In this document: positions 12,433 to 56,068 of the stretch, one piece after another
Position numbering within the stretch: the first letter of the stretch is position 1
Layout: each line of letters opens with the position of its first letter
Assembly: GCA_018402545.1 (NCBI GenBank)
Contig: JAGYIL010000001.1
Span: forward strand, 2,046,001 to 2,110,000
Source: Saccharospirillum sp.
GTDB lineage: Bacteria; Pseudomonadota; Gammaproteobacteria; Pseudomonadales; Natronospirillaceae
Direction of reading: 5' to 3'
Length of the DNA: 64,000 bases
Notes under the pieces: generated by a model
Databases searched by the model: none
Told to the model about the DNA's origin: nothing
What the model saw: the letters and a program-made list of their open reading frames with translations, nothing else
Made by a program: the position numbers and the translations under genes

Positions 12433-12630
12433 GTGCCAGCCACCGGGTAGACCCATCTGGGGTCGGGCGGAATGCCGCCCACTCAACCCATCCATGGGGC
12501 CTAGACCGCAGGATATGAACCCCATCCATGGGATTCACCCTTCGGGCTCGCTTCGCTCATGCTAAAACGCTCCTGGCGTTTTAGTCCATGCTGCGGACTA
12601 CCCCAGAAGGGTCTACCCGGTGGCCAGCAC
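12433..12630 (+). repeat. Dispersed inverted-repeat element, copy R1 (198 bp)
   Basis: The ends 12433-12462 and 12601-12630 are 30-bp terminal inverted repeats matching at about 27 of 30 positions. Inside are CCATCCATGGG-type motifs and a perfect hairpin, CTAAAACGC and GCGTTTTAG (12562-12584). A small extra hairpin (GGCGG/CCGCC, 12466-12480) makes this copy 14 bases longer than R2 and R3. It lies between serS and cysG. The short ORF ending in HPSGSLRSC is only a translation of the repeat. No target-site duplication is evident. Confidence 0.85.
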
Positions 12631-12703
12631 TTGGTTTTGTGCCACCGCTTTACTTAAATCGAATATCATCCGGGGTTTTCCCGGTACTAATTGACTGACC
12701 CAA

Positions 12704-12744
12704 CGGCGGGTCTAACACCGGCATCAAAAAGCCAGTGCCCGCCG
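12704..12744 (+). promoter_or_regulatory. Strong hairpin in the cysG leader
   Basis: CGGCGGG (12704-12710) pairs with CCCGCCG (12738-12744). Inside, CACCGGC (12716-12722) pairs with GCCAGTG (12731-12737) with one mismatch around an A-rich loop. No T-run follows. It is a structured leader or promoter palindrome 52 bases before the cysG start; its function is unknown. Confidence 0.4.
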
Positions 12745-12796
12745 TGTCGGGCCCGGCGAAATCTATCAGTGTCGGGTTCTTATTTTAGGAGTGGTC

Positions 12797-14188
12797 ATGC
12801 AATATTTTCCGTTGTTCCATAAGTTATCCGATAAGACCATTCTGGTGGTTGGTGGTGGGGACATTGCGGCGCGCAAGATTCACTTGCTGCAGCGATCAGG
12901 GTGTCGAATTCAGGTTGTGGCTCCGTCCATCCTGCCGGTTATTGCCAATAACCCCAATTGCCACTGCGAATGGCGGGTTTTTGATCCGACTGACATCGAT
13001 GGAAAGGCGCTGGTCGTCAGTGCCACGGATATCGAGGAAGTGAACCAGCGTGTCTCTGCGGAGTCGCGAGCACGCGGTGTGCTGGTCAACGTGGTCGACT
13101 CCCCTGAATTGTGCGATGTGATTTTCCCTTCTCTGGTCGATCGCGACCCGCTGATCATTGCCATCACGTCCAGTGGCCAGGCACCGGTGCTGGCGCGCTC
13201 GGTGCGGGCGAAGCTGGAGAGTACGATTCCGGCCAGTTATGGCCACCTGGCGCAATTGGCATCTCGCTTTCGCAATGCTGTCAAGAAACGCTTTACCAGT
13301 CTCGATGACCGGCGGTACTTCTGGGAAAAAGTGCTTGGCGGCACGGTGGCCGAGCATGTGTATGCCGGTCGGATGGAGCAGGCGGAGCATCAGCTCAAGG
13401 CGATGATTGAGGCGCCGGGCGATGAGCAGCATGGCGAAGTCTACCTGGTTGGGGCCGGGCCCGGTGATCCGGACTTGCTGACCTTCAAGGCGCTGCGGCT
13501 GATGCAGCAGGCCGATGTAGTGCTCTACGACCGGCTGGTCTCAGACGCCATTATGGATCTGGTGCGGCGCGACGCCGAGCGGTTGTATGTTGGCAAACAG
13601 CGTTCCGAGCATGCTGTGCCGCAACAGGATATCAATCAGCGTTTGCTGGACCTTGCCCGCGAGGGCAAGAAAGTCCTGCGTCTTAAGGGGGGTGACCCCT
13701 TTATCTTTGGGCGGGGTGGTGAAGAGATCGACTTGCTGGCCGAACATGGCATTCCGTTTCAGGTGGTGCCGGGTATTACCGCGGCTTCGGGCTGCTCAAC
13801 CTACACCGGCATTCCGCTCACTCACAGAGACTATGCCCAGTCGGTGCGCTTTGTCACCGGGCACTTAAAGGATGGCAGCCTGAATTTGCCCTGGAGTGAG
13901 CTGGCGAGCCCACAACAGACGGTGGTGTTTTACATGGGGTTGATGGGGCTGGAGAAGATTTGCAACAAGCTGATTCAGCACGGTCGCTCGGCTGATACGC
14001 CGATCGCGCTGGTACAAAAGGGGACAACGCCGGACCAGCGACTCTGGGTCGGTACCCTGGCCACCTTGCCGGAACTGGTGCGTGAAGACCCACCACAGGC
14101 GCCTACACTGATTATTGTGGGCGAGGTGGTGTCGTTGCACGAGCGCCTGAATTGGGTAGGTTCTGCAGTGACCGTCAGCCAGGCGTGA
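12797..14188 (+). CDS. cysG: Siroheme synthase CysG (dehydrogenase/ferrochelatase and SUMT)
   Basis: A fused 463-residue enzyme. The N-terminal half (CysG-B, about 1-200, NAD motif [11 protein letters not shown]) oxidises precorrin-2 and inserts iron. The C-terminal half (CysG-A, about 215-460, [33 protein letters not shown]) methylates uroporphyrinogen III with SAM. The product siroheme serves sulfite and nitrite reductases. AGGAG (12787-12791) sits five bases before the ATG at 12797, favouring it over the upstream GTG at 12791. The serS-cysG order followed by tus genes is also seen in Pseudomonas. Confidence 0.96.
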
Positions 14189-14271
14189 TGGTTGATCAGC
14201 AATGCCCGCCAGATTGACTGGCAGGTATTGCTGTCTCCATACATGATTTCAGGATTCTGGAGCCGATTTGA

Positions 14272-14487
14272 TCAGTGCGACAGGAATACCGCAGCAGAGA
14301 CCGAGGCGATGCCGCTGATCAGCGGGGCCAGGCCGTAGCCGGCAGACGATACTGGTAGCAGACCCAGTATGGCTGCGCCCAGTACGGCAATGGCAGCGGA
14401 CACCAGCGTAATGCCGATGAAGAAAACGGCAGCCATCAGTATTTTCAGTTGGGGGGCGGTCAAATGCAGGGGTAGGGGTTCGGTCAT
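14272..14487 (-). CDS. Small two-helix membrane protein of unknown function
   Basis: A 71-residue protein with two strongly hydrophobic segments (about 14-40 and 45-67) rich in Ala, Gly and Leu, joined by a short Gly-containing turn. The N-terminus is probably cytoplasmic. GGAGG lies eight bases before the ATG on the minus strand, which supports a real gene. No family was recognised. It lies between cysG and the tus-ybiB operon, on the same strand as the latter but beyond its probable terminator. Confidence 0.6.
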   Translation of the reverse strand: MTEPLPLHLTAPQLKILMAAVFFIGITLVSAAIAVLGAAILGLLPVSSAGYGLAPLISGIASVSAAVFLSH

Positions 14488-14574
14488 GGTTACAGCCTCC
14501 GAGCTTCGCTTTGAATCACAGTCTTGGGTTCTGCGCTCACTTTTGGTGCGATATCGGCGGTTTTTTACTGAAAT

Positions 14575-14594
14575 AACCCCCGATACAGGGGGTA
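14575..14594 (-). terminator. Probable terminator of the tus-ybiB operon
   Basis: On the minus strand CCCCC and GGGGG (plus 14577-14581 and 14588-14592) form a short GC stem followed by TTATTT, about 60 bases beyond the ybiB stop. Confidence 0.55.
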
Positions 14595-14652
14595 TCTCAA
14601 GATACGTGCCACTTTAGTCACTCAGATAACGAGTTTAATGCGAATTCGATGG

Positions 14653-15633
14653 TTAGAGTGAAACAGTCCGCTGTTGCCAGAGCTTTTCTGCTTTCTGGCG
14701 GGCTTCCTGGAGTATGATCTCATCGGCAACCATTAACACCAGCGCCATGGTGTCCTGAATGGCGGCCAGGCTGTAATCCGACTCAGTCTCGCCCGCCCAG
14801 GTGGATTGCAGCACCGCCATTGAGGGCTCGTCCGGGCGCACTGCCCGTTGAGGCAGTCTCCTGGGAACCTCGACTTCCTCCGGATGTTGTGGGCACTGAA
14901 CCAGCACGGTCGTATCCGAATCCGGTCTGACTTCAAATTCGCCGCTGTCCCCTTTAAGAACGACGTTATGGCTATCGCCCAATAAACGAGCGGTGTCGTG
15001 GTGCAGGGCTTTGTAGCTGGGGTGAAACATGCCTTGCACCGTTACCCGGGCGCCGGCCGGGTTCAGGTTGCGAACCAGGGTGTTGACCGGTGAACGTAAC
15101 CCCAATTCCCGTTTCATATCGATGATGTGCGACAGGGTGGGTGCAAAGCTGACCAGTGGGCAGTAGACCATAGCGTGATCCCGGCTCAGACTGGCCGCTT
15201 CCTGCCACGAAGCCGCAACGGGAATGCCCAGCGCGTCGCACACCTGGCGGGCATACTGGCGCCCGGCAGTGTGTTCGCCACCGCCGTGCATAAAAACCGG
15301 GTAGCCACCCTGTGCCAGTGCCTTGGCCGCCAATACATACCAGGAGGGTTGGCGGCGTTTCCCGGCGTAGGCGGGCCAGTCGATCTGCATGGGTTGGCCG
15401 GTCCATGGCTCGAGTTCAACGCGTACCGACTGAGCCATGCCGGCCAGCTCTTCTGCCGTTTCCTCCTTGACGCGCATCAGCATCAGCAGGGCACCCAGTT
15501 GCGCCTGGGTTTCGCGCTGATGCCAGATCTCCTGCATGGCAAAGTGGGCTTCTTCACGGCTCAGCGAACGGCTGCCGTTCTTGCCCCGGCCCAGGGCGCG
15601 GATCAGGTCGGCAAACTTCAGGGTATCGGTCAT
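14653..15633 (-). CDS. ybiB: YbiB/TrpD2-like glycosyltransferase-fold DNA-binding protein
   Basis: A 326-residue protein with the fold of anthranilate phosphoribosyltransferase. The N-terminal helical domain (FADLIRALGRGKNGSRSLSREEA) is followed by the alpha/beta domain. E. coli YbiB (TrpD2) lacks the enzyme activity and binds DNA. The phosphoribosyl-pyrophosphate loop appears altered (FMHGGGEHTAGRQYA), in line with TrpD2 rather than TrpD. It is last in the tusDCBE-ybiB operon, 28 bases after tusE. Its link to tRNA thiolation is unknown, but the same neighbourhood is found in Pseudomonas. Confidence 0.85.
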   Translation of the reverse strand: MTDTLKFADLIRALGRGKNGSRSLSREEAHFAMQEIWHQRETQAQLGALLMLMRVKEETAEELAGMAQSVRVELEPWTGQPMQIDWPAYAGKRRQPSWYVLAAKALAQGGYPVFMHGGGEHTAGRQYARQVCDALGIPVAASWQEAASLSRDHAMVYCPLVSFAPTLSHIIDMKRELGLRSPVNTLVRNLNPAGARVTVQGMFHPSYKALHHDTARLLGDSHNVVLKGDSGEFEVRPDSDTTVLVQCPQHPEEVEVPRRLPQRAVRPDEPSMAVLQSTWAGETESDYSLAAIQDTMALVLMVADEIILQEARQKAEKLWQQRTVSL

Positions 15634-15661
15634 GGTTTATCCAGCAGTGGCAATAAATGGG

Positions 15662-15994
15662 TCACAGACAGTTTTTGGGCTTGGGCAAACCGGCCAGCAG
15701 GGCCAGCATGCGGGCCGGGCTTTCGCCGAAGCGCTGCATCAGGAAGATGCTGTTGCCAACGTCGGCGCCAAACCGGGCTTTTAAATGCTTGACCAGAGGG
15801 CGCATGGCGGGCGACAGGTCGTATTCAAAGTAGAATTCACGCAGTGATTCAACAATGGCCATATCCTGGTCGGTCAGCGACAGCCCCTGCTGGCTGGCTA
15901 TGTTGAGGCACCAGTCTGGCGTCCAGCGCGTTGCATCGAGCAGAAAGCCAAGGTGGTCAGTCTCCGGGCTGGCCGTATGTGTTCGTTCATTCAT
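15662..15994 (-). CDS. tusE: Sulfurtransferase TusE (DsrC family)
   Basis: A 110-residue DsrC/TusE protein. The C-terminal arm ends PKPKNCL with the conserved penultimate Cys that accepts persulfide from TusD. The upstream Cys present in true DsrC is replaced (RFGESPARML), which points to TusE, the carrier for tRNA 2-thiouridine synthesis with MnmA, rather than dissimilatory sulfur metabolism. It lies downstream of tusDCB on the same strand. Confidence 0.92.
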   Translation of the reverse strand: MNERTHTASPETDHLGFLLDATRWTPDWCLNIASQQGLSLTDQDMAIVESLREFYFEYDLSPAMRPLVKHLKARFGADVGNSIFLMQRFGESPARMLALLAGLPKPKNCL

Positions 15995-16044
15995 CGCGTT
16001 TACTCAGGTTTTCTGTGGTGTTGAATGGGCTTCAGAGGCTGACA

Positions 16045-16308
16045 TTACCAGGTCAGTTGCGGCTGATGTTCGGCGATCAGATCGGCCCATTCCTGATCGC
16101 TGATGACCGCCCAGTCCGGGTGTCGCTGGCCGCCCAGTGCATCGGCATCGGCCTGGCGAATGCAGCCCCGGGCTGGCGTCGGGTTAGGCTGCCACATCAT
16201 CGGGCGGGCATCTTCGCGCAACAAAATCACATCACCGGCTTGCAGCCAGAGATCAAAGAGTTCTCGTTGTGCCCCGCCCGGTAAGGCCGTCAGCGTCAGC
16301 AGGGCCAT
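16045..16308 (-). CDS. tusB: Sulfurtransferase complex subunit TusB
   Basis: An 87-residue DsrH/TusB protein, third subunit of the TusBCD heterohexamer. It is divergent, as TusB usually is, but the position after tusD-tusC, the size and the LLREDARPMMWQ core support the call. The start shares a base with the tusC stop, so translation is coupled. Confidence 0.82.
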   Translation of the reverse strand: MALLTLTALPGGAQRELFDLWLQAGDVILLREDARPMMWQPNPTPARGCIRQADADALGGQRHPDWAVISDQEWADLIAEHQPQLTW

Positions 16309-16697
16309 CAGAACACCTCCACATAGCGGGCATGCCGCAGCCAGTAAGCCAACTGACCCAGTGAGCAGGCCTGAATGTCATCCCGGTGAATTTCCTGTCC
16401 CAGCACCCGGTGTTGATGACTGGCGCAGTAAAACAGGGCTTCGCTGCCGTACATTGGCAGCGCACTCAGTTGCTTGTTCAGGCTCTTGCTTTCACTGGGC
16501 GCTTGTCCGTCGGCCAGCCAGCCAAGACCCTGATCAAAAAAAACTACCGCATGTTCACGGTCGAACAATGCAAGGCTCATCACCGCTTCCAGTATTTCTT
16601 CACTCTGCCGGCCCTGGTAGGGCGGACGGGTAATCAGCACCAGGGTGTCAAAGTGGTCTGAGCCAGGCTCTATTGTTGAATCGACGGTCGTATTCAT
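16308..16697 (-). CDS. tusC: Sulfurtransferase complex subunit TusC
   Basis: A 129-residue DsrE/F-fold protein (LVLITRPPYQGRQSEEILEAVMSLALFDREHAVVFFDQGL). TusC is the structural partner of TusD in the sulfur relay. Its start overlaps the tusD stop by four bases (ATGA) and its end abuts tusB. Confidence 0.9.
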   Translation of the reverse strand: MNTTVDSTIEPGSDHFDTLVLITRPPYQGRQSEEILEAVMSLALFDREHAVVFFDQGLGWLADGQAPSESKSLNKQLSALPMYGSEALFYCASHQHRVLGQEIHRDDIQACSLGQLAYWLRHARYVEVF

Positions 16698-17083
16698 CGA
16701 AAACTCACTACCTTGTCAGCTTCACCATAACCCAGCGCCCACTGGCCCAAACCGACTAGCTGAAAGGGCTCTGTGACGGTAGAAACAGGGCTTTGATAGC
16801 GTTGGGCTTCGGTGTCATTCAGTAACCCCCGGTTGGCCGAGGCCGCAATGCACAGCAATAATTCACAGCCGGATTCAGCGGCGAAGTCGAGCCAGGCTTG
16901 TTTCAGGTCGACTTCATCAGAGGCCGGAGACTGAGTAATCAACCCGACATAGACGGCATCCATAAAGAAGAACACACGCTCAATCCGGTCTCCCCGGGCA
17001 AGGCAAGCCCGGGCGAAGGCGAGGGCATCCCGGTGGCTCACATGGTGCCAGGGTGCCTGGTAAAGGTTCAGTTGAATGTTCAT
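16694..17083 (-). CDS. tusD: Sulfurtransferase complex subunit TusD
   Basis: A 129-residue DsrE-family protein. The active Cys lies in LLLCIAASANRGL (about residue 78), the position that receives sulfur from TusA. Together with TusC, TusB and TusE it moves sulfur from IscS-TusA to MnmA for s2U34 of tRNA; tusA is not in this window. It is the first gene of the tusDCBE-ybiB operon, just downstream of the yccA terminator. Confidence 0.92.
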   Translation of the reverse strand: MNIQLNLYQAPWHHVSHRDALAFARACLARGDRIERVFFFMDAVYVGLITQSPASDEVDLKQAWLDFAAESGCELLLCIAASANRGLLNDTEAQRYQSPVSTVTEPFQLVGLGQWALGYGEADKVVSFR

Positions 17084-17103
17084 GGGCGCATCATATCACA
17101 CAC

Positions 17104-17130
17104 AAAAAAGGCCGCTTTAAGCGGCCTTTG
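17104..17130 (-). terminator. Terminator of yccA
   Basis: AAAGGCCGC and GCGGCCTTT form a perfect stem around a short TTAA-type loop. On the minus strand a run of six T residues follows. It lies 23 bases beyond the yccA stop. Confidence 0.85.
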
Positions 17131-17152
17131 TCTTCCAATCGGTTCGCCCCGG

Positions 17153-17821
17153 TCAGTCGTCGGACAGAGCGCCGACCAGCACCAGTAGGTGAACAAAGAG
17201 GTTATAGATGTCGAGATACAGTGACACGGTCGCGCGAACGTAGTTGGTTTCACCACCGTTCACAATGCGGCTTGTGTCAAACAGGATCAGCAGCGACATC
17301 AGCAACACCACACCGGCAGAAATGGCCAGGCTCAGTGCAGGAATCGCCAGAAACAGGTTAGCCAGAATCGCGACCAGCGCGACAATCATGCCAACCATGA
17401 CGAAACCGCCCAGGAAGCTGAAGTCTTTCTTCGTGGTTACGGCATAAGCCGACAGACCAAACGTGACCAGTGCCGTGCCACCCAGCGCCTGCGCGACGAT
17501 GGACGGGCCATTGGCTAGCGACAGGTAAGCGGTCAGCATGGGGCCCAGGCTGGCACCCATCAGGCCTGCGAAGGCGAAGGTCCAGACAATGCCCATGCTC
17601 GAGTTGTACGCACGTGGCAGCACAAACCAGACGATGCCGATGGCGGCAAGCATCATGATCAGTGCACCACCCTGAGGCATTCCGACAGCCATGGCGATCA
17701 TTGCCGTAACGGCACTGAACACCAGTGTCATCGACAACAGCAGATAGGTATTTCGTAATACTTTATTGGTCGCCAGCGCCGATTCCGAACGCGACGTGAC
17801 GGTACCTTGATAGTCAGCCAT
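17153..17821 (-). CDS. yccA: Bax inhibitor-1 family membrane protein YccA
   Basis: A 222-residue protein with seven predicted membrane segments from about residue 22 to the end (LLLSMTLVFSAVTAMIAMAVG onward) and the family loop around NGGETNYVRATVSLYLDIYNLFVHLL near the C-terminus. E. coli YccA is a substrate and inhibitor of the FtsH protease. The frame is open to 17902, but ATG at 17821 follows GGAGG at seven bases and starts MADYQG, typical for the family. A yccA next to tusDCB is conserved in Pseudomonas. Confidence 0.93.
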   Translation of the reverse strand: MADYQGTVTSRSESALATNKVLRNTYLLLSMTLVFSAVTAMIAMAVGMPQGGALIMMLAAIGIVWFVLPRAYNSSMGIVWTFAFAGLMGASLGPMLTAYLSLANGPSIVAQALGGTALVTFGLSAYAVTTKKDFSFLGGFVMVGMIVALVAILANLFLAIPALSLAISAGVVLLMSLLILFDTSRIVNGGETNYVRATVSLYLDIYNLFVHLLVLVGALSDD

Positions 17822-18061
17822 GGGCAAACCTCCATAATGTGAACCCGAATCAATAGTATAGGCCGGTTGCCGTTTTTCAAGCGTTATCGATTGCCAGCAC
17901 ACCAGCTATACCTGCCGTTGACAGTACAGGATAAGCCCCGGAGTGTCAGCTTCGATCGGTGTTTTTACACCCCGGGCGCTGCTTTAATAGCAGTGCAGGA
18001 TGTCTTCCTGTCCGACCGGGTGAAAAAGGCCTGCAAACTGGCCATAAGTCATGTATATTCT

Positions 18062-18084
18062 CGTTTTAAACGGGCGTTTTAAAC
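18062..18084. promoter_or_regulatory. Candidate PsrA operator (autoregulation)
   Basis: CGTTTTAAAC occurs twice in direct repeat (18062-18071 and 18075-18084), separated by GGG. The junction reads AAAC-GGGC-GTTT, matching the PsrA consensus form AAAC-N2-4-GTTT known from Pseudomonas. It lies about 95 bases before the psrA start, in a 355-base gap with no other gene. Confidence 0.65.
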
Positions 18085-18176
18085 AATCGCACGAAACCCT
18101 AAGCGCCGACCGTAAATGAGTAACCAGTGACTGGGGTTGTAGTCAGCCTCGCCTTTGCCCTATCCGAGACCGAACC

Positions 18177-18806
18177 ATGAGCCAAGCCGATACCGTCACC
18201 CGCATTCTGGATTCAGCCGAAGAATTATTCGCTGAGAAAGGGTTTGCCGAAACCTCATTAAGGATGATCACCACCCGGGCCAAGGTTAACCTGGCGGCGG
18301 TGAACTACCATTTCGGCTCGAAGAAAGACCTGATTCAGGCTGTTTTTGCGCGCTTTCTGAGCCCCTTCTGCAGCAAACTGGACAAAGAACTGACCGTCAT
18401 GGCCGCAGCGAACCCGGAACCTAGTCTCCACGATGTTCTGGATGTCCTCGCCCGAACCATGCTGACCGGCGTCCACTCCACGGTTGGCACCCGCAAGCTG
18501 TCCGTGTTCATGCGACTGCTTGGCTTGGCCTATACCCAGGCCCAGGGTCACCTGCGACGTTTTCTGAAAGAGAACTACCAACAGACTTACAGCCGCTTCA
18601 TTCTGTATCTGCGCGCGGCCCACCCGGAGCTCTCGCCCCGCGAAATCTTCTGGCGAATTCATTTCGCCATTGGTGCCTGCGTGTTCACCATGTCGAGCAT
18701 TGAAGTGCTGCGAGACATGTCGATGGCCGATACCGGCGAAGACTCAGGCGTCGAGGATGTTATGAATCAGTTGATTCCGTTTTTAGCGGCTGCGCTTGAG
18801 CGCTAG
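18177..18806 (+). CDS. psrA: TetR-family fatty-acid-responsive regulator PsrA
   Basis: A 209-residue TetR repressor. The HTH (about 24-54) reads SLRMITTRAKVNLAAVNYHFGSKK, and the body contains FMRLLGLAYTQAQGHLRRFL and the FWRIHFAIGA helix, closely matching Pseudomonas PsrA. In that genus PsrA is autoregulated, responds to long-chain fatty acids, and controls beta-oxidation, ETF genes and rpoS. Here it sits after yccA and convergent with a crotonase gene, overlapping by four bases, not beside lexA as in Pseudomonas. A double operator-like palindrome lies upstream. Confidence 0.88.
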   Translation: MSQADTVTRILDSAEELFAEKGFAETSLRMITTRAKVNLAAVNYHFGSKKDLIQAVFARFLSPFCSKLDKELTVMAAANPEPSLHDVLDVLARTMLTGVHSTVGTRKLSVFMRLLGLAYTQAQGHLRRFLKENYQQTYSRFILYLRAAHPELSPREIFWRIHFAIGACVFTMSSIEVLRDMSMADTGEDSGVEDVMNQLIPFLAAALER

Positions 18807-19594
18807 TCCTTTTCTGGACTAATGGGGGTTGCGCGATCATTGGTCCGCCGCTTTCGAAGTGTCTCCGACTGGGTCAGTCGAACGTCCGTTGAGCATTCGA
18901 TCATGGTTTCCAGCAGGGCTTCGTCGTAGGGCTCATTGGCCACCAGGTTGAAGGTTGCCTTGGTAACTTGAAGGGCGTTCTGACTGCGAGACAGAATGCC
19001 ACGCGCCAGCACGGTGGCGACTGCTTCCAGTTCATCGCCGGGAACCAGCCTATGCACCAGTCCCAGGCGGGTCGCGATGTAGGCGTCCATGATTTCCCCG
19101 GTCAGCGAATAGTATTTGGCGGCGCGTTCGCCGAGAGCCTTGGTCAGGTAGGGGCTGCTGAGGGCAGGTACCTGGCCGAATAGCGACTCGGTAATGCAGA
19201 ACGAGGTTTTTTCACTGGCCAGCACCATATCGCAACAACTGGCAATGCCGACCGCCACCGCATTCACATCGCCACGCACCGTTAATAGAACCGGTACCGG
19301 GAACTGGTACAGGGTTTCCAGCAGACGCGACATCTGTTCGGCGTCCTGTTGGTGTTCGGCACGGCCTACGCCTTCGCGGCGCTTTAGCCATTGCCGGTCT
19401 GGACCGCTGCAAAAATGCGCCCCCTTGCCGCTGAGCCAAATCAGCTTGAGTGATGCATCGTCGGCCAGATCATCCAGCGCCGTCACCAGGGTGCAAATCA
19501 TTTCATCGTCGTAGGCATTGCCCGTCTCGGGCTTGTTGAGAATCACCCGGGCCAGCCCATCTTCCAGACGCTCGATCAGTACGGTTTCCTTCAT
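18803..19594 (-). CDS. Enoyl-CoA hydratase/isomerase (crotonase) family protein
   Basis: A 263-residue crotonase-fold protein. The oxyanion-hole segments are GAHFCSGPDRQW (about 56-67) and VNAVAVGIASCCDMVLASE (about 110-130); a Glu in the FCITESLFGQVPA segment may act in catalysis. The exact substrate is open: enoyl-CoA or methylglutaconyl-CoA hydratase are possible. It ends inside the psrA stop region. The adjacency to psrA suggests a role in fatty-acid or branched-chain acyl-CoA breakdown, which is inference. Confidence 0.8.
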   Translation of the reverse strand: MKETVLIERLEDGLARVILNKPETGNAYDDEMICTLVTALDDLADDASLKLIWLSGKGAHFCSGPDRQWLKRREGVGRAEHQQDAEQMSRLLETLYQFPVPVLLTVRGDVNAVAVGIASCCDMVLASEKTSFCITESLFGQVPALSSPYLTKALGERAAKYYSLTGEIMDAYIATRLGLVHRLVPGDELEAVATVLARGILSRSQNALQVTKATFNLVANEPYDEALLETMIECSTDVRLTQSETLRKRRTNDRATPISPEKD

Positions 19595-19647
19595 GGATTT
19601 TGTTGTTCTTTTTAGCGAAGGGTCATTTCACACTAAACCAGAAAGCC

Positions 19648-19674
19648 AAAGGCCGCCACTCACTGACGGCCTTT
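19648..19674. terminator. Possible terminator of rapA
   Basis: AAAGGCCG (19648-19655) pairs with CGGCCTTT (19667-19674) around an 11-base loop. The T-tracts on both sides are imperfect (GTTTCTG and GGCTTTC). It lies between rapA and the crotonase gene, both on the minus strand. Confidence 0.5.
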
Positions 19675-19713
19675 GTTTCTGTATGTTTTGTGTATAGGGC
19701 AGAGCCTGCCGGG

Positions 19714-22374: not shown

Positions 22375-22617
22375 GGCGTCCTCGTATCCCCAAAAGGGCC
22401 GCTATTCTACGGAATCTGTCGAGTCATGAAAGAGATAACCGCGAATTGGCGTGATTCGATGACTTTCAGTCTAGTAAAACAACGTCTGTTTGCCGGATTC
22501 ATCAAAGCGATAGTCAGGCTCGATGGTCATAAGAGTGCAAAATCATGCATTTGGGGCTTGCCAGTTGGCCCCATTGCCCCATTATTAGGGGTACATTAAT
22601 CAAGGTATTTTCGCTGT

Positions 22618-25533: not shown

Positions 25534-25566
25534 GCGACGGCAAAACACTTAAGTCTAAGGTAAAAG

Positions 25567-25589
25567 AGCCGCCGTAAAGCGGCTTTTTT
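25567..25589. terminator. Bidirectional terminator between M16 protease and xthA
   Basis: AGCCGC (25567-25572) pairs with GCGGCT (25579-25584), followed by TTTTTTG; on the minus strand CTTTTAC follows the stem, so it can also serve xthA. Confidence 0.8.
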
Positions 25590-25599
25590 GTTTAAACCA

Positions 25600-43652: not shown

Positions 43653-43668
43653 GAATACTCCTGCGCAA

Positions 43669-46710: not shown

Positions 46711-46716
46711 TGTGTC

Positions 46717-47928: not shown

Positions 47929-47930
47929 AC

Positions 47931-49424
47931 TCAGTAGCTCCGGTACACGCGCAGTACTTCCTCAACGGTGGTGAGACCCTTCATTACCTTGTCTTTTCCG
48001 TCTTGCAATATGCTCGGCGACAGCGTCCGGGCGTGGCGCTCCAGATCGATGTCACCGGCCCGGTCATGAACCAGCTGGCGCAGGCCTTCGTCTACCCGAA
48101 TAAACTCATACAGACCCAACCGGCCGCGATAGCCTGTGCTCTTACAGGCCGAACACCCGGCGGCATGATAGATGGTCGGCTTGTCAGTGGTCGAAATGCC
48201 CAAGAATTCGCATTCCGCTTCATCGGGCTGGTAAGGCGTTTTGCAATCCGGACAGAGGGTACGAACCAGCCGCTGGGAGACCAGGCCAATCAAACTGGAG
48301 GCCAGCAAAAAGGGCTCGATGCCCATGTCTTGCAAGCGGGTGACGGCCCCGGTCGCACTGTTAGTGTGCAGCGTCGATAACACCAGGTGACCGGTCAGAC
48401 TGGCCTGGACTGCAATATCAGCCGTTTCATAGTCGCGAATCTCGCCGATCATTACGACATCCGGGTCCTGACGCAAAATGGCGCGCAAGCCTCGGGCAAA
48501 GGTCATATCGACCTTGGTGTTTACCTGTGTTTGGCCAACCCCCGGCAGACTGTATTCAATGGGGTCTTCCACCGTCATGATGTTGCGGCTGTGACTGTTC
48601 AGCGACTGCAAGGCGGCGTAGAGCGTCGTGGTTTTACCGGAACCGGTCGGCCCGGTAACAAGGATAATGCCATGCGGGCGCTGAATCAGATCGGTGATGG
48701 TTTTCAAATCGCGCGGGTTCAAACCAAGCTGGTTTACATCCAGACGACCCGCTTGCTTGTCGAGCAAACGCAACACCACCCGTTCGCCGTGGTTGGAGGG
48801 AATGGTCGAGACCCGCAAGTCCACTTCCCGGCCTGCAACACGCAGCGCAATGCGCCCGTCCTGGGGGACGCGTTTCTCGGCGATGTCGAGCCGCGACATG
48901 ACCTTGATACGGGAGACCAGCAGGGGCGCCAGTGCCCGCTTGGGTTGCACCACTTCACGCAACACACCATCGACCCGAAACCGGATCGACAGGCGTTTTT
49001 CATAGGTTTCGATGTGAATGTCCGACGCCTGTTCGCGAATGGCTTCGGACAGAATAGCGTTGATCAGGCGAATGATGGGGGCGTCGTCTTCCTGCTCCAT
49101 CAGATCTTCGGTTTCCGGTACAGAGTCGGCCAGAGAACTGAGATCCATGGTATCGCCAAGCCCTTCCACCATCTGCATCGCATCATCAGAATCGGTGTGG
49201 TAGGCGCGGTTCAGGTATTCGGAGAACTCCTGTTCGTTAACCTGCATGTGCGGGAAAACGCCTTGCATCAGACGCTGAGCCTCTTGCAAGGCATTCAGAT
49301 TCACATCCGGCCGGTACAACAGGCGTGGGCCATCTGCGTGGTCGTAGTCGATCACCACGCCATGGCGTTTGGCGAATGTGAATGGCAGGCGTCGTTCCGT
49401 AACGCCCTGGGGTACCGCATTCAT
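47931..49424 (-). CDS. gspE: Type II secretion ATPase GspE
   Basis: A 497-residue secretion ATPase. N1E domain (about 1-110), Walker A GPTGSGKTTT (about 256-263), Asp box DPEIEYSLPG-type, Walker B and His box (LSTLHTNSATGAVTRL), and a tetracysteine zinc site CPDC...CSAC typical of GspE. It is first in the transcribed gspE-F-G-H-I-J-K-L-M run; gspC and gspD are not upstream. Confidence 0.95.
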   Translation of the reverse strand: MNAVPQGVTERRLPFTFAKRHGVVIDYDHADGPRLLYRPDVNLNALQEAQRLMQGVFPHMQVNEQEFSEYLNRAYHTDSDDAMQMVEGLGDTMDLSSLADSVPETEDLMEQEDDAPIIRLINAILSEAIREQASDIHIETYEKRLSIRFRVDGVLREVVQPKRALAPLLVSRIKVMSRLDIAEKRVPQDGRIALRVAGREVDLRVSTIPSNHGERVVLRLLDKQAGRLDVNQLGLNPRDLKTITDLIQRPHGIILVTGPTGSGKTTTLYAALQSLNSHSRNIMTVEDPIEYSLPGVGQTQVNTKVDMTFARGLRAILRQDPDVVMIGEIRDYETADIAVQASLTGHLVLSTLHTNSATGAVTRLQDMGIEPFLLASSLIGLVSQRLVRTLCPDCKTPYQPDEAECEFLGISTTDKPTIYHAAGCSACKSTGYRGRLGLYEFIRVDEGLRQLVHDRAGDIDLERHARTLSPSILQDGKDKVMKGLTTVEEVLRVYRSY

Positions 49425-49560
49425 TGCTGTGTCCTGTACTGAAGTCCGTTGTGTGCCGGCATCATCGCTAGCGTCTTGCCTGCCCGATGCGTGAGTCCTG
49501 CCTTAACGACGGACGGTAACCATTTGAATTTGCGGAAGAATATCATTCATTCCGGGGGTA

Positions 49561-51732
49561 TCAACCTACCCATCGCTGAATCAGTGTGATCAGGTTCTCA
49601 TAGGTAACCGGTTTGGTCATAAAATCGTCCATTCCGGCGGCCAGACAAGCCCGTTCCTGTTCCGGCGTGTCTTCCCCGGTCAGTGCGATGATCGGCAAAT
49701 GGGTTCCGGTGCCCATCTCCCGTTGCCGGATAATTCGGGTCGCTTCCAACCCGTCCATGCGCGGCATCAGACAATCCATGATCACCAGGTTGTAGGGTGG
49801 ATCCTGAACGGCCTGTTGCGACGCTTCTAGGCCGTTCACACAGGTGTCGACTGTTGCACCCATACGACCCAGCAACCGCACCACCACTTTCTGGTTAACC
49901 ATGTTGTCTTCCGCCAGCAATACACGGACCTGATCGCACCGGTACTCTGCCGCAGTGTCGACCCGGGTTGCCTCATGGGATTGCCGCAACATTTGCAACA
50001 GCTCATCCCGGGCGGCCGGTTTCTCTATAAACCGGAAACCAAGCTCCAGATCCGCCAGCAAGCCCCGCTGCAACTGGGACGCATAGAGGAATACAGTGGT
50101 CTGTGGTGCTTCGGTTTGCAACCGGCTTTTTAGTAGCTTTACCTGTTCAAGATAACTTTGGGCGCGGGCGTCCTCGACGGGCAGGTTAATCAGGATAAAG
50201 TCGGTCGGCTGTATCGAATCGCCTTCAAGCAGTCGCTCCAGCGTCCAGGTAGATACGGTCATTTCCCAGCTGTAAAACTCGGCACTGAGTGCACGCTCGG
50301 TAACCGGGCTTAGATCGACCAGCGTAATGGACCTGCCGGCCATGTATTTGGCCGGTCTGAAGGAGCTGGCCTGCTGGGAGCTGGCCTGAATGGGCAGCGA
50401 GACCACGATCTTTCTCAGATCCTGTTTCGACGATACGGTAAGCTTGGCATTCATCGACTTGAACTGAGCTGCAGCAACCATCAAGGTCAACTGGTCGGAG
50501 ACGTCTTCGTCTTCGGGCAGGGTGTTCATGTTGCGGTTAATGGCGGCGCGCAAGTCCTCGTCACTGACCTCGGTATTGATGAAATAGAAAGACAGCAGCA
50601 GGTTGTCCTGGCCCTGTTCGGTGTCTCCATCCATGGCAATGCGAACGGTAATCTCACCTTCTTCCGCGCTGTCGAGCGTGAAGTCCAGCAGCCGGCGAAA
50701 GGCATTCGACAGCCACTGTGGGTCGAGCTCTATTCGCTCGGGCACAGAGGGGTGATACAAGTAAGCCAGCTCCAGCCCGTGTTCATGAGCCTTGCTGCCC
50801 ATATCGGACAGAGCGTGCTCCAGCGTCTTGCGCAGGTTGAATACGATTGACTGAGGAACCCGCGACTGATCCCGCTGTTCGATGAAGGCCTCGAGATCAG
50901 TCACCAGGTCCAGAATAGACCGGCCACTGCGACGGGCAATACTGAGCATGCCCTGGTGTTCCGTCGACTGTTCATCATGAGTGAGCATCCCCAACACGCC
51001 CAGTAACCCGCTCAGGGGCGTTTTAACCCGATGCAGCAGCTGATTGACAAAGCGCCGGTTGGTGGTGGCCTGCAATACATTCTCTTCACGGGCTTCTTCG
51101 AGCGCTTTGAGGCGCATCTTGAGCTCGTGGTTATGCGTCAGAAAACTCCAGACCAGTTCCGAGACCCGACCCGCCGTACTTACCAGGTAGAAATACACGG
51201 CGATAAAGGCGATCCCCACCCAGACATGACCCGACGATTCCGCTCGGATCAGGTAATAAAGACCGATAGGCAGCAATAACACCGCGAGATACACACGAAC
51301 CGTGCGGCCATAGAGGGAGTAGACAAAGGTGCCGCCCGCTGCGACAGACAGGGTGTACAGCAGACCCAGCAAGGCAATCGGATGCTCGGGCCCGTCCAGC
51401 CGGTAAACCAGATAGGCCGTCCAGACGGCAGCGTGCAGAAAGCCCGAGAGAATAAAGGTATCGCGCCAACGAGCCGGGCCACGGGCGTACCAGTCAGAGA
51501 ACTGGGCGATCATGATAAAACGCCAGGCGGCCATAATGACCAGCGCCAGGCCAAACACATAGCTGGCATTAGGCGTGGGCCCCACGGCAAGCCATTGCCA
51601 TTCCAGCAACAGAAACACCACAAAATGCAGGACGGCACTGGGCAGTCCCTGTCGACTCAGGGTTTCATCGATTCGCTTGAGAATGGCGCGATCTTTCTGG
51701 GCTTTGTGCTGTGGCGTAAAAAACCAACTCAT
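49561..51732 (-). CDS. Hybrid histidine kinase with degenerate ATP-binding domain and two receivers
   Basis: A 723-residue protein with six to seven membrane helices (about 35-195) and a coiled coil (205-222). A HisKA-like helix keeps His234 (LLHRVKTPLSG). An HATPase-like region (337-450) has lost both N-box Asn (SNAFRRLLDFT), the DxGxG motif (FINTEVSDED) and the GLGL loop. A pseudo-receiver follows (468-585, Asp replaced in ILINLP). The C-terminal receiver is intact: Asp609, phosphoacceptor Asp653, Thr685 and Lys707. It probably cannot phosphorylate itself. The gap to gspE is 136 bases; regulation of secretion is only a guess. Confidence 0.8.
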   Translation of the reverse strand: MSWFFTPQHKAQKDRAILKRIDETLSRQGLPSAVLHFVVFLLLEWQWLAVGPTPNASYVFGLALVIMAAWRFIMIAQFSDWYARGPARWRDTFILSGFLHAAVWTAYLVYRLDGPEHPIALLGLLYTLSVAAGGTFVYSLYGRTVRVYLAVLLLPIGLYYLIRAESSGHVWVGIAFIAVYFYLVSTAGRVSELVWSFLTHNHELKMRLKALEEAREENVLQATTNRRFVNQLLHRVKTPLSGLLGVLGMLTHDEQSTEHQGMLSIARRSGRSILDLVTDLEAFIEQRDQSRVPQSIVFNLRKTLEHALSDMGSKAHEHGLELAYLYHPSVPERIELDPQWLSNAFRRLLDFTLDSAEEGEITVRIAMDGDTEQGQDNLLLSFYFINTEVSDEDLRAAINRNMNTLPEDEDVSDQLTLMVAAAQFKSMNAKLTVSSKQDLRKIVVSLPIQASSQQASSFRPAKYMAGRSITLVDLSPVTERALSAEFYSWEMTVSTWTLERLLEGDSIQPTDFILINLPVEDARAQSYLEQVKLLKSRLQTEAPQTTVFLYASQLQRGLLADLELGFRFIEKPAARDELLQMLRQSHEATRVDTAAEYRCDQVRVLLAEDNMVNQKVVVRLLGRMGATVDTCVNGLEASQQAVQDPPYNLVIMDCLMPRMDGLEATRIIRQREMGTGTHLPIIALTGEDTPEQERACLAAGMDDFMTKPVTYENLITLIQRWVG

Positions 51733-51832
51733 AGATAGTCATCCGACGCCGCTGCGTCCTGCAAAGACCGCCACTATACCCTCTGTTGGCCCGCCGCCCA
51801 ACCGTGAGGAGGCCAATTACTGCCTGGAGTCC

Positions 51833-52016
51833 GTGTCAGGCACCGGGCATACCTATCTGGGGTCGGCATGAACCCATCCATGGGGCCTAGACTTCGGGAT
51901 ATGAATCCCCTCCATGGGTTTCACCCTTCGGGCTCGCTGCGCTCATGCTAAAACGCTCCTGGCGTTTTAGTCCATGCCTCAGACTTCTCCAGACAGGTAC
52001 ACCCGGCACCTGACAC
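51833..52016 (+). repeat. Dispersed inverted-repeat element, copy R2 (184 bp)
   Basis: Terminal inverted repeats at 51833-51862 and 51987-52016 (30 bp each, about 24 of 30 matching). The interior is nearly identical to R3 and R1, including the CTAAAACGC/GCGTTTTAG hairpin (51948-51970). Similarity to R3 continues to about 52042 (AACTCTGAAACTT). It fills most of the 362-base gap 51733-52094 between the hybrid kinase and etfA. No ORF of its own. Confidence 0.88.
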
Positions 52017-52048
52017 TCAGTTGGTTGCCAACTCTGAAACTTGAAATA

Positions 52049-52071
52049 AAAAACCCGGCAGCGCCGGGTTT
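52049..52071 (-). terminator. Terminator of etfBA
   Basis: AACCCGGC (52052-52059) pairs with GCCGGGTT (52063-52070) around AGC. On the minus strand six T residues follow. It lies about 25 bases beyond the etfA stop. Confidence 0.85.
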
Positions 52072-52094
52072 ATGGATCACATTCAAACGATGCC

Positions 52095-53021
52095 TCAGAG
52101 CGCTTTTTCAAACTCGGGCAAGGCGTCGAACAGATCTGCTACCAGGCCATAGTCGGCTACCTGGAAGATGGGCGCGTCTTCATCTTTGTTGATGGCGACA
52201 ATCACCTTGCTGTCTTTCATGCCGGCCAGATGCTGAATCTGACCGGATATGCCGACGGCGATGTAGAGTTCCGGCGCTACGATCTTGCCGGTCTGGCCAA
52301 CCTGCATGTCGTTCGGTACGAAACCGGCATCCACCGCGGCGCGCGAGGCACCGACGGCTGCGTCGAGTTTATCGGCCAGGGTGTACAGCAGTTTGAAGTT
52401 GTCGCCATTCTGCATGCCACGACCACCGGAGACCACGATGCGGGCAGCGGTCAGTTCAGGGCGATCCGACTTGGCCAAATCTTCACCGACGAAGGCACTG
52501 ATGCCCTTGTCATGGCCGCCAGTTACCGTTTCAACGGATGCAGAGCCATTCAGTTCGCAGGCATCGAAGGCGGTGCCGCGCACGGTGATCACCTTGATGC
52601 TGTCGCTCGATTGCACGGTGGCAATGGCGTTACCCGCGTAGATGGGGCGCTTGAAGGTATCGGCCGATTCCACACTGAGAATGTCTGAAATCTGTTCAAC
52701 GTCGAGCAGTGCGGCCAGACGCGGCATCATGTTTTTGCCGTTAGTGGTTGCCGGGGCCAGAATGTGGCTGTAGGACTTGCCCAGTTCGGCCACCAGGTCG
52801 GCCAGGTTTTCGGCCAACTGATGGCCATATGCCGCATCGTCGGCTAACAAAACTTTGCTGACACCGGACAGTTTGGCGGCTTCATCAGCCACGGACTGGG
52901 CGCCGGAGCCGGCGACCAGAACATCGATGTCGCCACCGATTTTAGCGGCAGCCGTAATCACGTGGGACGTTACCGGAGCCAGCGATGCGTTATCGTGTTC
53001 AGCTATGATCAGAATACTCAT
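52095..53021 (-). CDS. etfA: Electron transfer flavoprotein alpha subunit
   Basis: A 308-residue ETF alpha subunit. The C-terminal FAD-binding domain carries [19 protein letters not shown] and [29 protein letters not shown]. With EtfB it carries electrons from acyl-CoA dehydrogenases to ETF:ubiquinone oxidoreductase. Its start overlaps the etfB stop by four bases. Repeat R2 lies beyond its terminator. Confidence 0.96.
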
Positions 53022-53770
53022 GACAGCACCTTCGCTTCGTTTTTCAGTTTATCGACCAACTCGGCAACCGAGCCAACGGTAATGCCCCCTTTGCGCTCGG
53101 CAGGTGGCTCTACACTGAGCACTTTAACGCTGTTGCTGAGCGTTACGCCGTAATCCGCTGCGGTTTTCTTGTCGAGCGGTTTGCGCTTGGCTTTCATGAT
53201 GTCCGGCAGCTTGGCATAGCGAGGCTCGTTCAGGCGCAAGTCGGTGGTGATGATGGCTGGTAAATTCAGAGACAGGGTCTGCAGCCCCCCGTCGATTTCA
53301 CGGGTTACCTGAGCCTTGTCGCCGTCTATCAATAGTTGGCTGGCAAAGGTGCCCTGGGCCATGCCGGTCAGTGCGGCGAGCATCTGGCCTGTCTGGTTGT
53401 TGTCGCTGTCGATGGACTGCTTGCCCAGCAACACCAGGCCTGGTTGCTCTTCATCGACTATCGCCTTGAGCAGCTTGGCCACGCCCAGTGAACTGGGGGC
53501 TTCGTCGGTGGTGATCAGGATGCCGCGGTCGGCGCCCAATGCCATGGCCTTGCGGATTTGCTCTTCGGCCTTGGCTTCACCGATTGACACGACCACGATC
53601 TCGGTGGCGGTGCCCTGCTCTTTCAGTCGCACGGCTTCTTCGACGGCAATTTCGCAGAACGGATTCATATCCATTTTCACGTTGGCCAGATCCACATCGC
53701 TGTTGTCTGGCTTGACGCGGACTTTGACGTTGTAGTCCACAACACGCTTTACCGGAACCAGAATTTTCAT
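53018..53770 (-). CDS. etfB: Electron transfer flavoprotein beta subunit
   Basis: A 250-residue ETF beta subunit, starting [19 protein letters not shown], with the AMP-binding region and the [22 protein letters not shown] family signature. First gene of etfBA. It is divergent from etfD across 370 bases holding PsrA-like sites. Confidence 0.96.
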
Positions 53771-53884
53771 AGTGGTCTCGTGTCCTCATGGTCAGATGAC
53801 CGTCGAATTGGCGGTCGAAGTTTGGGGTTGGCGGCTCACCGTCAGGGCACTGCCCTGGCAACCACGCACGGCGGACATTTAATC

Positions 53885-53916
53885 CGTTTTAAACGAAAAT
53901 TTCAAACAGTTGTTTT
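53885..53916. promoter_or_regulatory. Candidate PsrA operator in the etfBA/etfD divergent promoter
   Basis: CGTTTTAAAC (53885-53894) is identical to the units of the psrA promoter. CAAAC-AGTT-GTTTT (53903-53916) fits the PsrA form AAAC-N2-4-GTTT. The site lies about 115 bases before etfB and 225 before etfD. Nothing else was recognised in the 370-base gap (53771-54140) apart from the etfD Shine-Dalgarno. Confidence 0.6.
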
Positions 53917-54140
53917 AATTTTTCCGGTTGAGCAGGTAAACTCGGTGCCAAATCGAGGTGGCGCCGCGGTTCTGTCATTACCCAGACGGTGACGTTATAT
54001 GCTCTCTATGGCGCCAAACCCGGTCATTACAATCGTATGCGAGTCACAGGAGTCGACACCGGGTACCGGTCTCGCCATCCCGTCACCGTAAAGCCCAGTT
54101 ACCGGGCCGTTCGCCCCGGTAATTCGTTCAGGAGGTCCCT

Positions 54141-55796
54141 ATGGAACGCGAATCCATGGAATTTGACGTAGTTGTTGTCGGCGCAGGTCCGGCCGGTCTG
54201 TCTGCAGCCATCCGGCTGATGCAAGGTGCGGCCGAGACTGGTCAGGAATTATCCGTCTGTGTCGTGGAAAAGGGATCCGAAGTGGGAGCCCATATTCTTT
54301 CCGGTGCCGTGTTCGAACCGCGCGCCCTGAGTGAACTGATTCCCGACTGGAAAGACAAGGGTGCCCCGCTAAACACCGCCGTGACCGGCGATGACATCTA
54401 TATGCTGCGTAACGAGAAAGCGGGCATAAAGGTCCCCAACCTCTTTGTGCCTGCGACCATGCACAACGAGGGCAACTACATCATCAGCCTGGGCAACCTT
54501 TGCCGCTGGCTTGCCGAACAGGCCGAAGGCCTGGGCGTTGAGATTTTCCCCGGCTTTGCCGCGGCTGACGTTTTGTACGGTGAAGACGGTTCCGTCCAGG
54601 GCATCATTACCGGTGACATGGGTGTGGCCGCAGACGGTTCGGAAAAAGACGGCTACATGCCGGGTATGGAATTGCGCGCCAAAACCACCCTGTTTGCCGA
54701 AGGCGCACGCGGCCATCTGGGCAAAAATCTGATCCGCACCTTCAAACTGGATGCCGGTAAAGACCCGCAGCATTATGGGCTGGGCATCAAGGAACTGTGG
54801 GATGTCGACCCTTCGGTTCACCAGCCGGGCAAGGTGGTCCACACCGCCGGCTGGCCGCTTGCAGAGCACGGCTCTCACGGTGGTTCCTTCATGTACCACA
54901 TCGAGAACAACCAGGTAGTGCTGGGTCTGATCACCGATCTCGGCTACCAGAACCCCTACCTCAGCCCGTTCGATGAATTCCAGCGCATGAAGCACCATCC
55001 GTTGTTTGCCAATACCCTGAAAAACGGCAAGCGCGTCTCCTACGGTGCCCGGGCCATTGCCAAGGGCGGCTTACAAAGTCTGCCGAAAATGCATTTCCCG
55101 GGTGGTTTGCTGATCGGTTGCGATGCCGGCACCCTGAACTTTGCCAAGATCAAGGGCAGCCACACCGCCATGAAATCTGGCATGGTGGCCGCTGAGGTCA
55201 TTCTGGAACGAGCTAAAGGCGACTGGCAGGCGGGTCAGGATCTGGCTGAATACGCCGCGGCGTTTGAGCAATCCTGGGCTTATCAGGAACTGCACCAGCA
55301 ACGTAACTTTGGCCCGGCGCAGCACAAGTTCGGGAATGTGCTCGGCTCAGCCTATGCCTTTATCGATATCAACCTGTTCCGCGGCAAGCTGCCGTGGACG
55401 ATGCAGGACACGACGCCGGATTATGCGCAGACGAAACTGGCCAGTGACTGCCCGCAACTAAGCTACCCCAAGCCGGATGGCGTATTGAGCTTCGACAAGC
55501 TGAGCTCGGTGTTTTTGTCGAACACCAATCACGAGGAAGACCAGCCGGTGCACCTGAAACTGGCCGATCCGTCTATCCCGATCGCCAGCAACCTGCCGAA
55601 ATACGCAGAACCCGCCCAGCGATACTGTCCGGCCGGTGTATACGAAGTGATTGAGGATGAAGCAGGCGAAAAACGGTTTCAGATCAATGCGCAGAATTGC
55701 GTGCATTGCAAAACCTGTGACATCAAAGACCCGGCCCAAAACATCAACTGGGTAACGCCAGAAGGTGCGGGTGGACCAACCTACCCGAATATGTAA
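54141..55796 (+). CDS. etfD: Electron transfer flavoprotein-ubiquinone oxidoreductase
   Basis: A 551-residue ETF-QO that passes electrons from ETF into the quinone pool. N-terminal FAD fold VVVGAGPAGLSAAIRL (about 12-27), GAHILSGAVFEPRAL, and a C-terminal 4Fe-4S ferredoxin-like domain with CPAGVYEV and NCVHCKTCDIKDP cysteines. AGGAGG six bases before the ATG decides the start. It is divergent from etfBA, and both are bracketed by inverted copies of the dispersed repeat. Confidence 0.95.
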   Translation: MERESMEFDVVVVGAGPAGLSAAIRLMQGAAETGQELSVCVVEKGSEVGAHILSGAVFEPRALSELIPDWKDKGAPLNTAVTGDDIYMLRNEKAGIKVPNLFVPATMHNEGNYIISLGNLCRWLAEQAEGLGVEIFPGFAAADVLYGEDGSVQGIITGDMGVAADGSEKDGYMPGMELRAKTTLFAEGARGHLGKNLIRTFKLDAGKDPQHYGLGIKELWDVDPSVHQPGKVVHTAGWPLAEHGSHGGSFMYHIENNQVVLGLITDLGYQNPYLSPFDEFQRMKHHPLFANTLKNGKRVSYGARAIAKGGLQSLPKMHFPGGLLIGCDAGTLNFAKIKGSHTAMKSGMVAAEVILERAKGDWQAGQDLAEYAAAFEQSWAYQELHQQRNFGPAQHKFGNVLGSAYAFIDINLFRGKLPWTMQDTTPDYAQTKLASDCPQLSYPKPDGVLSFDKLSSVFLSNTNHEEDQPVHLKLADPSIPIASNLPKYAEPAQRYCPAGVYEVIEDEAGEKRFQINAQNCVHCKTCDIKDPAQNINWVTPEGAGGPTYPNM

Positions 55797-55884
55797 GGTA
55801 GGCTCAGCCCGGGCACTGACCGACAGTTCAGAGGCTCGGGTTATTGTTCTTCCAACTCAAGTTTCGGAGTTAGCATCCATCTTA

Positions 55885-56068
55885 GTGCCAGGTTCCAGGT
55901 ATACTTATCTGGGGAAGTCTGAGGCATGGACTAAAACGCCAGGAGCGTTTTAGCATGAGCGCAGCGAGCCCGAAGGGTGAAACCCATGGAGGGGATTCAT
56001 ATCCCGAAGTCTAGGCCCCATGGACGGGTTCACGCCGGCCCCAGATAGGTATACCTGGTGCCTGGCAC
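55885..56068 (-). repeat. Dispersed inverted-repeat element, copy R3 (184 bp)
   Basis: Same length as R2, in the opposite orientation. TIRs at 55885-55914 and 56039-56068 match at about 27 of 30 positions. Outside them a perfect 13-bp inverted repeat, AAGTTTCGGAGTT (55859-55871) and its complement (56094-56106), makes a 248-bp nested structure. The hairpin CTAAAACGC/GCGTTTTAG is at 55931-55953. It fills the 315-base gap 55797-56112 after etfD. Confidence 0.88.

Follow-up and report, generated by a model that had tools for sequence, protein, structure and literature searches.

Three dispersed repeats, which we call R1, R2 and R3, lie in a 64,000-nucleotide stretch of the genome of Saccharospirillum sp. 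(assembly GCA_018402545.1, contig JAGYIL010000001.1, positions 2,046,001 to 2,110,000; hereafter the window), and they belong to a family of miniature inverted-repeat transposable elements (MITEs) of the IS4 type that has conventional ends but an uncommon cargo. At a probability of about 0.6, we favour the reading that all three are long-type, non-autonomous IS4-family MITEs whose cargo is an RNA module that would bind CsrA/RsmA. The binding is something that we infer from the loops of the cargo and that can be put to the test. A few dedicated sponge RNAs are believed to control the activity of CsrA/RsmA, and here a family of mobile DNA may be scattering putative decoys for this master regulator.

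All three repeats were found where the original prediction had placed them, and they are genuine copies of one repeat rather than chance resemblances: when the 4.25-Mb assembly that holds the window (G000) is searched by BLAST with R2, 44 places match at E<=0.001, the last four of them as fragments, and the folding z-scores are -7.4 for R1, -5.2 for R2 and -6.5 for R3, with 0 of 200 shuffles equally stable in each case. R2 and R3 are inverted copies of one another, 92% complementary over 224 aligned nucleotides, and both do measure the same 184 bp as first delimited; R1 carries an additional hairpin insert, and its alignments reach 82% with R2 (165 nt) and 85% with R3 (147 nt). The expected lack of coding capacity is borne out, since none of the 127 open reading frames (ORFs) of at least 100 amino acids in the window overlaps R1, R2 or R3, and we reject a coding element on this ground and a tRNA-related origin because the window is without any tRNA. 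What has to be redrawn are the ends. The 30-bp inverted repeats that had been taken for the termini are actually the arms of an internal stem, and when element limits are set by aligning copies together with their flanks, the true outer terminal repeat of the family, CTCAAGTTTCGGAGTTCG...CGAACTCCGAAACTTGAG, lies 29-41 bp farther outward. On these limits R1 runs from about 12392 to about 12659 and R2 from about 51792 to about 52045, both with the strand of the GGA loops on the minus strand, and R3 from 55856 to 56109 with that strand on the plus strand. Outer terminal repeats are recognisable at both ends of R3 (55856 to 55873 on the plus strand, CTCAAGTTTCGGAGTTAG, and 56092 to 56109 on the minus strand, reading TGAACTCCGAAACTTAAC on the plus strand); both outer ends of R1 are decayed and the low-coordinate end of R2 is unrecognisable, and the limits of these two copies are extrapolated by homology. 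Across the assembly, the family end 15-mer ACTCCGAAACTTGAG occurs at 80 places with at most one mismatch, and its reversed control at none.

The family is an IS4-type MITE, because it has the terminal repeats, a 6-7 bp target duplication, a related insertion sequence (IS) in a sister species and empty sites at R2 and R3, and the dispersed MITE-like element of the original prediction is upheld on the same grounds. An autonomous transposase with the same ends had been proposed as something to look for, and it is found at L113 in a sister species, as a 1658-bp IS of which each end is one base off the family ends and which is flanked on both sides by the exact 7-bp repeat GTACTAA; its 514-aa transposase scores 268.4 bits with the NCBIfam IS4 family transposase model (cut-off 250) and passes the Pfam DDE cut-offs. 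The MITE, short (86-283 bp) and non-coding, is a derivative of such an IS, with nearly identical ends and a 7-bp target duplication in common, but to judge from inspection of its ends and ORFs, the IS lacks the covarying RNA-like module. A second IS with the family ends, in genome G018, has its transposase split over two ORFs, and we note separately that a second csrA-like gene lies at L270 (C23:44853-45011), on the same contig as this interrupted IS. For the target duplication we relied on 48 two-ended copies, taken from loci of G000 and sister species with each end at no more than 4 of 18 mismatches, in which direct flank agreement reaches 2.58 vs 2.02 matches at 6 bp and 3.06 vs 2.36 at 7 bp (0 of 1000 shuffles each), with no excess at 4, 5 or 8-12 bp; the target repeats of single copies are mostly eroded, so that the 6-7 bp duplication is to be understood as a statistical excess over the 48 copies. 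In the inverted sense, too, the flanks beyond the ends agree more than shuffled ones do, out to 12 bp (at 10-12 bp, 0 of 1000 shuffles). Finally, the check for empty sites that had been suggested was run for R2 and R3, and in all five of the five sister species the flanking genes align at the orthologous places with no local match to the element. Several of these orthologous intergenic spaces are occupied by other inverted repeats (L361-L368), for example GTAGGGTGGGC...GCCCACCCTAC in G004.

Of the 48 two-ended copies, 32 are of a short type (182-199 bp) and 14 of a long type (252-283 bp); the other two are deletion forms, 86 and 107 bp long. In the long type, to which R1, R2 and R3 belong, a longer hairpin module takes the place of the top hairpin of the short type, and this module is also found in other genera, there lacking these ends. 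That three copies in one window imply many in the genome holds true for both types, since the 44 matches of the long type are joined by at least 150 matches to a covariance model of the short type, built from a core alignment of 12 sequences (150 of 150 scored candidates in G000). The same model finds matches in 17 of the 22 genomes of the family, and across six Saccharospirillum genomes the counts are at least 150, 142, at least 150, 128, 15 and 6, which is the wide variation in copy number within a genus that had been put forward as a check. Where two short-type cores of the searched G000 loci lie less than 700 bp apart, the pair is ordered minus then plus, with diverging GGA strands, in 13 of 13 cases (L184, L227, L249, L183, L233, L257, L247, L245, L243, L220, L240, L253 and L166).

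What the element carries is, on the GGA strand (minus in R1 and R2, plus in R3), a long closing stem bearing two hairpins. In the gap-free alignment of 12 sequences, 98.2% of the cells pair and 22 of the 37 pairs have changed on both sides; among 29 sequences from several genera, in an alignment that was itself fitted to the structure, 96.9% of the cells are paired and 35 of the 37 pairs have changed on both sides, with a covariation of 1.008 against 0.214 for shuffled sequences and at most 0.175 for slid partners. The model used across genera rested at one stage on a chosen set of 23 loci, and reverse-strand, duplicate and odd matches were left out. Copies from other genera have outer arms that share no sequence, yet these still pair. 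Pairs of G and T hold in the RNA of one strand, and the other strand reads them as A and C. Of 41 long copies chosen by BLAST, 39 were counted on the GGA strand (L009 was dropped for gaps and L041 as a duplicate), and they show 91 G.T against 13 A.C pairs. The figures are 48 to 13 when two GT-rich pairs are set aside (binomial p 7.7e-6, ignoring kinship) and 24 to 10 for the inner 20 pairs (binomial p 0.024, ignoring kinship); the counts are 25 to 1 in cores chosen by the model, without the two outer pairs, and 17 to 3 in short copies chosen by their ends. Single-stranded DNA could leave the same sign.

It is the loops that bring CsrA/RsmA into the argument. Passages of PMC6692469 give the RsmE/CsrA consensus as (A/U)CANGGANG(U/A), with AnGGA usually in a hairpin, and paired hairpin-loop sites of this type are present in the cores, the outer A/U positions standing outside the count. 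Loop 1 has the sequence CANGGA(T/C)G, fitting CANGGANG, in each of 78 ungapped cores of the short type from G000, and loop 2 fits CANGGANG in 77 of them, with variable N positions; these cores are the 99-nt ones among 86 core matches, and the counts are biased to the consensus because they were chosen as top-scoring matches of the model. In their minimum-energy folds, C-G-closed hairpin loops hold the GGA of loop 1 in 75 of the 78 cores and that of loop 2 in 68. Nearest neighbours among the 78 differ at a median of about 8 of 99 positions, and the 12 fixed loop positions show a single deviation in 936 cells, compared with 16% at other unpaired positions, again in a top-scoring and so biased set. 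Of the 32 short copies found by their ends, some at loci that came originally from the model search, 31 keep an intact loop 1 and 30 an intact loop 2. In 40 long copies chosen by BLAST (L041 left out), deviations affect 7 of the 360 cells that make up the TCC/GGA columns of three loops, against 382 of 4478 cells in the other core columns. Within the window itself, six of the eight CANGGANG sites that can be closed by at least two further pairs fall inside R1, R2 and R3. Both sites of R1, CATGGATG at 12523 to 12530 and again at 12489 to 12496 on the minus strand, are C-G-closed hairpin loops in the minimum-energy fold, and the third GGA hairpin loop of the long type, CCAGGAGC, lies at 12569 to 12576 on the same strand. 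In R2, also on the minus strand, CATGGAGG (51909 to 51916) and CATGGATG (51875 to 51882) fit CANGGANG by sequence, with GGA paired in the minimum-energy fold. The plus strand of R3 carries CATGGAGG at 55985 to 55992, unpaired in that fold and outside any hairpin loop, CATGGACG at 56019 to 56026 with its GGA paired, and CCAGGAGC at 55939 to 55946 in a hairpin loop.

The original prediction recognised no family, and here we come to a different view, because the core resembles the Rfam family TwoAYGGAY (RF01731), Ysr224 (RF02770) and the Yersinia palindromic repeats YPAL/RU-2, besides the fit of its loops to the CsrA/RsmA consensus. TwoAYGGAY, which PMC2864571 lists among candidate RNAs for the human gut, gammaproteobacteria and Clostridiales and which PMC4333381 proposes to bind CsrA, has two hairpins with ANGGAN loops beneath a closing stem, as in the short-type core; two AYGGAY-type loops under one stem are indeed found in the short type and, in the long type, by sequence in R1, R2 and R3 and as a fold in R1 only. 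In G000, one of five listed places lies above the gathering score of this family (49.6 vs 43 bits), and it passes that score in 4 of the 18 genomes searched. TwoAYGGAY shares the Rfam clan CL00106 with CsrB (E. coli K-12), and numerous hairpins with GGA loops are likewise a feature of CsrB/CsrC and RsmX/Y/Z; those are single dedicated genes for small RNAs, whereas we are dealing with dispersed transposon copies, in which no promoter was identified, though no search aimed at one was made, and a description of TwoAYGGAY as a dispersed mobile element was not found in those parts of the literature that were searched. The matches of Ysr224 to the core region lie on the other strand, the one without the GGA loops, and stay throughout below its gathering score of 70, from which they are far removed (for example 33.2 bits, E 0.00054). 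A permissive Rfam scan of L045, L049, L077, L078, L082 and L003 brought up only a weak Ysr224 match in L077 besides tRNAs; the other permissive matches that appeared alongside Ysr224 were set aside as mostly chance hits of microRNA models.

Excerpts from PMC2229807 present YPAL as mobile, intergenic and in many copies, with target duplications and insertion at dyad symmetry, and as co-transcribed with upstream genes, perhaps affecting RNA stability. Compared by eye with the RU-2 sequence in the available part of PMC2759123, the core with its CAAGGATG and ACATGGATGT loops and TTTACGGCG recurs there, but the outer sequence, ends and length are different, and the duplications given in the excerpts from PMC2229807 span 3-26 bp, against 6-7 bp here. 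A search of the literature for 'CsrA' with 'Yersinia palindromic' gave no link between the two, and we recognised none between CsrA and mobile repeats generally in the titles, abstracts and passages searched, including passages of PMC8144298, PMC5864184, PMC2699552 and PMC4383904. We also considered the GTAG/CGTC repetitive extragenic palindromes (REPs), which passages of PMC3733652 portray as palindromic, intergenic and often close to an oppositely oriented partner, features that the MITE shares; the CGTC REPs are given there stems of 8-9 bp, loops of 4-5 nt and no transposase. Identity with these REPs was rejected, since the MITE has 6-nt loops, larger two-hairpin modules and IS4-type ends. 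We claim a likeness to TwoAYGGAY and YPAL, and no membership of TwoAYGGAY for R1, R2 and R3, because they miss its gathering score.

How far does the core reach? Matches to the cross-genus model occur in 73 of 369 sampled gammaproteobacterial genomes, in a class-wide scan that was strictly filtered and scored 11 candidates for each genome. Of 30 matches at 29 loci in other genomes, all fit in loop 2 and 29 in loop 1, where the remaining one has a gap. In genome G342 (L300-L308), the same core sits in a MITE that has different ends, CAGCAATTCCCA...TGGGAATTGCTG, and apparent target repeats, read by eye, some 9-10 bp long, and in G401 (L326-L333, L340-L359) a near-identical core of about 60 bp lies inside unrelated, nearly perfect arms of 16-35 bp. 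Within 400 kb of G401 the core is found in such arms at six places and palindromes with arms of at least 16 but without the core at two, under differing rules for mismatches and loops; a looser core pattern gave 39 places, most of them chance on inspection, and the density of one core per 10 kb that it suggested was dropped. BLAST searches with the Yersinia core found no match in phages, and matches in 5 of 5,426 E. coli genomes and in 15 plasmid records. The core on these plasmids, of E. coli and other enterobacteria (among H2-H20), is 82% identical to that of Yersinia; 14 of the 15 are typed as conjugative and several come from waste water, and the same core occurs at one place on an E. coli chromosome. 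As for the presumed partner, a csrA match (PF02599) is present in 10 of 10 genomes examined, G000 among them. Of the 73 genomes that carry the core 68 have such a match, and of the 296 others 245 (Fisher p 0.016); among genomes at least 90% complete the figures are 59 of 60 and 221 of 254 (p 0.005), both tests ignoring kinship and the overlaps having been counted by eye from match lists.

The mechanism that we propose would run as follows. The IS4-type ends would account for the movement of the element, and the cargo, a closing stem topped by two CANGGANG hairpins in the short type or by two such loops and a third GGA loop in the long type, would be transcribed on its GGA strand, in most cases because transcription of adjacent genes runs on into the copy; the hairpin pair of the resulting RNA could then bind the CsrA/RsmA dimer, and the copies might thereby serve as decoys or as local docking sites for CsrA. 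The loops suggest a reason why the RNA form is kept, namely that it offers a pair of sites to the dimer.

Several observations weigh against this proposal. R1, R2 and R3 are without a TwoAYGGAY match at the gathering score, as they and the whole 64-kb window are for every Rfam family, and the MITE copies listed elsewhere in the genome miss that score too (for example C5:223437-223563, 38.6 vs 43). The minimum-energy folds of R2 and R3 form none of four CANGGANG hairpins, against two of two in R1. Five of the 73 genomes with the core have no csrA match, one of which, G289, is 98% complete and keeps intact loops. The transposase is found in 2 of the 10 genomes examined and has no match in G000, which counts against present mobility, although a helper in the same genome is unnecessary for membership of a MITE by descent. 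The strongest objection to a CsrA-docking RNA is the orientation relative to genes, which is unbiased: in the GGA frame, the neighbours of 86 copies are ++ in 27, -- in 24, +- in 22, -+ in 10 and unclassified in 3, by crude ORF calling in which 12 of the 86 copies overlap a called ORF. About half of the copies between co-directional genes, R1 included, would therefore be read by their neighbours as the non-GGA strand, a pattern that suits a mobile element better than host-selected decoys.

This brings us to what the hairpins might otherwise be for. The hairpins of REPs and of attC sites are recognised as DNA by enzymes, and the main rival to an RNA role is that the MITE hairpins too act as DNA, the extruded or single-stranded GGA strand being recognised by a transposition or recombination enzyme for which the loops are conserved. 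We consider this unlikely, but it is strengthened because the core sits in MITE ends with other duplications in G342 and in the unrelated palindromic arms of G401, where such arms without a core are rare in 400 kb, and both the tolerance of G.T wobbles by single-stranded DNA and the unbiased orientation would suit it. Against it, the loops match the CsrA/RsmA consensus position by position, the free N positions included, Rfam groups the related TwoAYGGAY with CsrB, and the L113-type IS carries the outer ends and not the core. No enzyme specific to the core came to light, although no search aimed at one was made.

Less probable again, in our opinion, is a plain selfish MITE, in which template-switch correction would act on the imperfect palindromes and so keep their arms paired, and the loops would look conserved because the copies are recent. 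Such an element would naturally be non-autonomous, with a target duplication, empty sites and no bias of orientation, and correction would produce the inverted flank agreement that we see up to 12 bp; yet the copies are not recent, as their median divergence makes clear, and still the fixed loop positions hardly deviate (in the biased, top-scoring cores), the same loops recur at the 29 sampled loci of other families, and correction leaves the excess of G.T over A.C on one strand unexplained. A role in ending or protecting transcripts has been proposed for REPs and for YPAL, and the present folds could in the same way act at 3' ends, their stable stem doing the work and the GGA loops being incidental. 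The folds are very stable, convergent gene pairs (22) exceed divergent ones (10) around the copies, and the co-transcription of YPAL with upstream genes, with its possible bearing on RNA stability, points the same way (excerpts from PMC2229807), but a terminator or stabiliser would not need invariant CANGGANG loops on freely varying stems, and we regard this as very improbable.

If the CsrA/RsmA-binding reading is true, well over 100 transposon copies per genome would carry CsrA-type sites, bursts of transposition would shift the load on a global regulator, that load would differ between species of one genus, and TwoAYGGAY, Ysr224 and the YPAL repeats would become joined. A broader proposal, which we ourselves find doubtful, is that the CsrA/RsmA-binding double hairpin is itself a module travelling among gammaproteobacterial genomes. 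It would have entered MITEs with IS4-type ends in Saccharospirillum and with other ends in G342, the G401 palindromes and YPAL, and its copies would jointly titrate or redirect CsrA/RsmA; were this so, mobile DNA would be tuning a global regulator.

Two smaller features of the window deserve a mention. R2 starts right beside a terminator-like inverted repeat with a T run on the minus strand (52047 to 52075), and insertion beside terminators may be habitual for the element. In addition, a separate family of 46 nt is present between 24013 and 46660 in five copies, four of them inside 1.4 kb, and these are probably similar gene starts.

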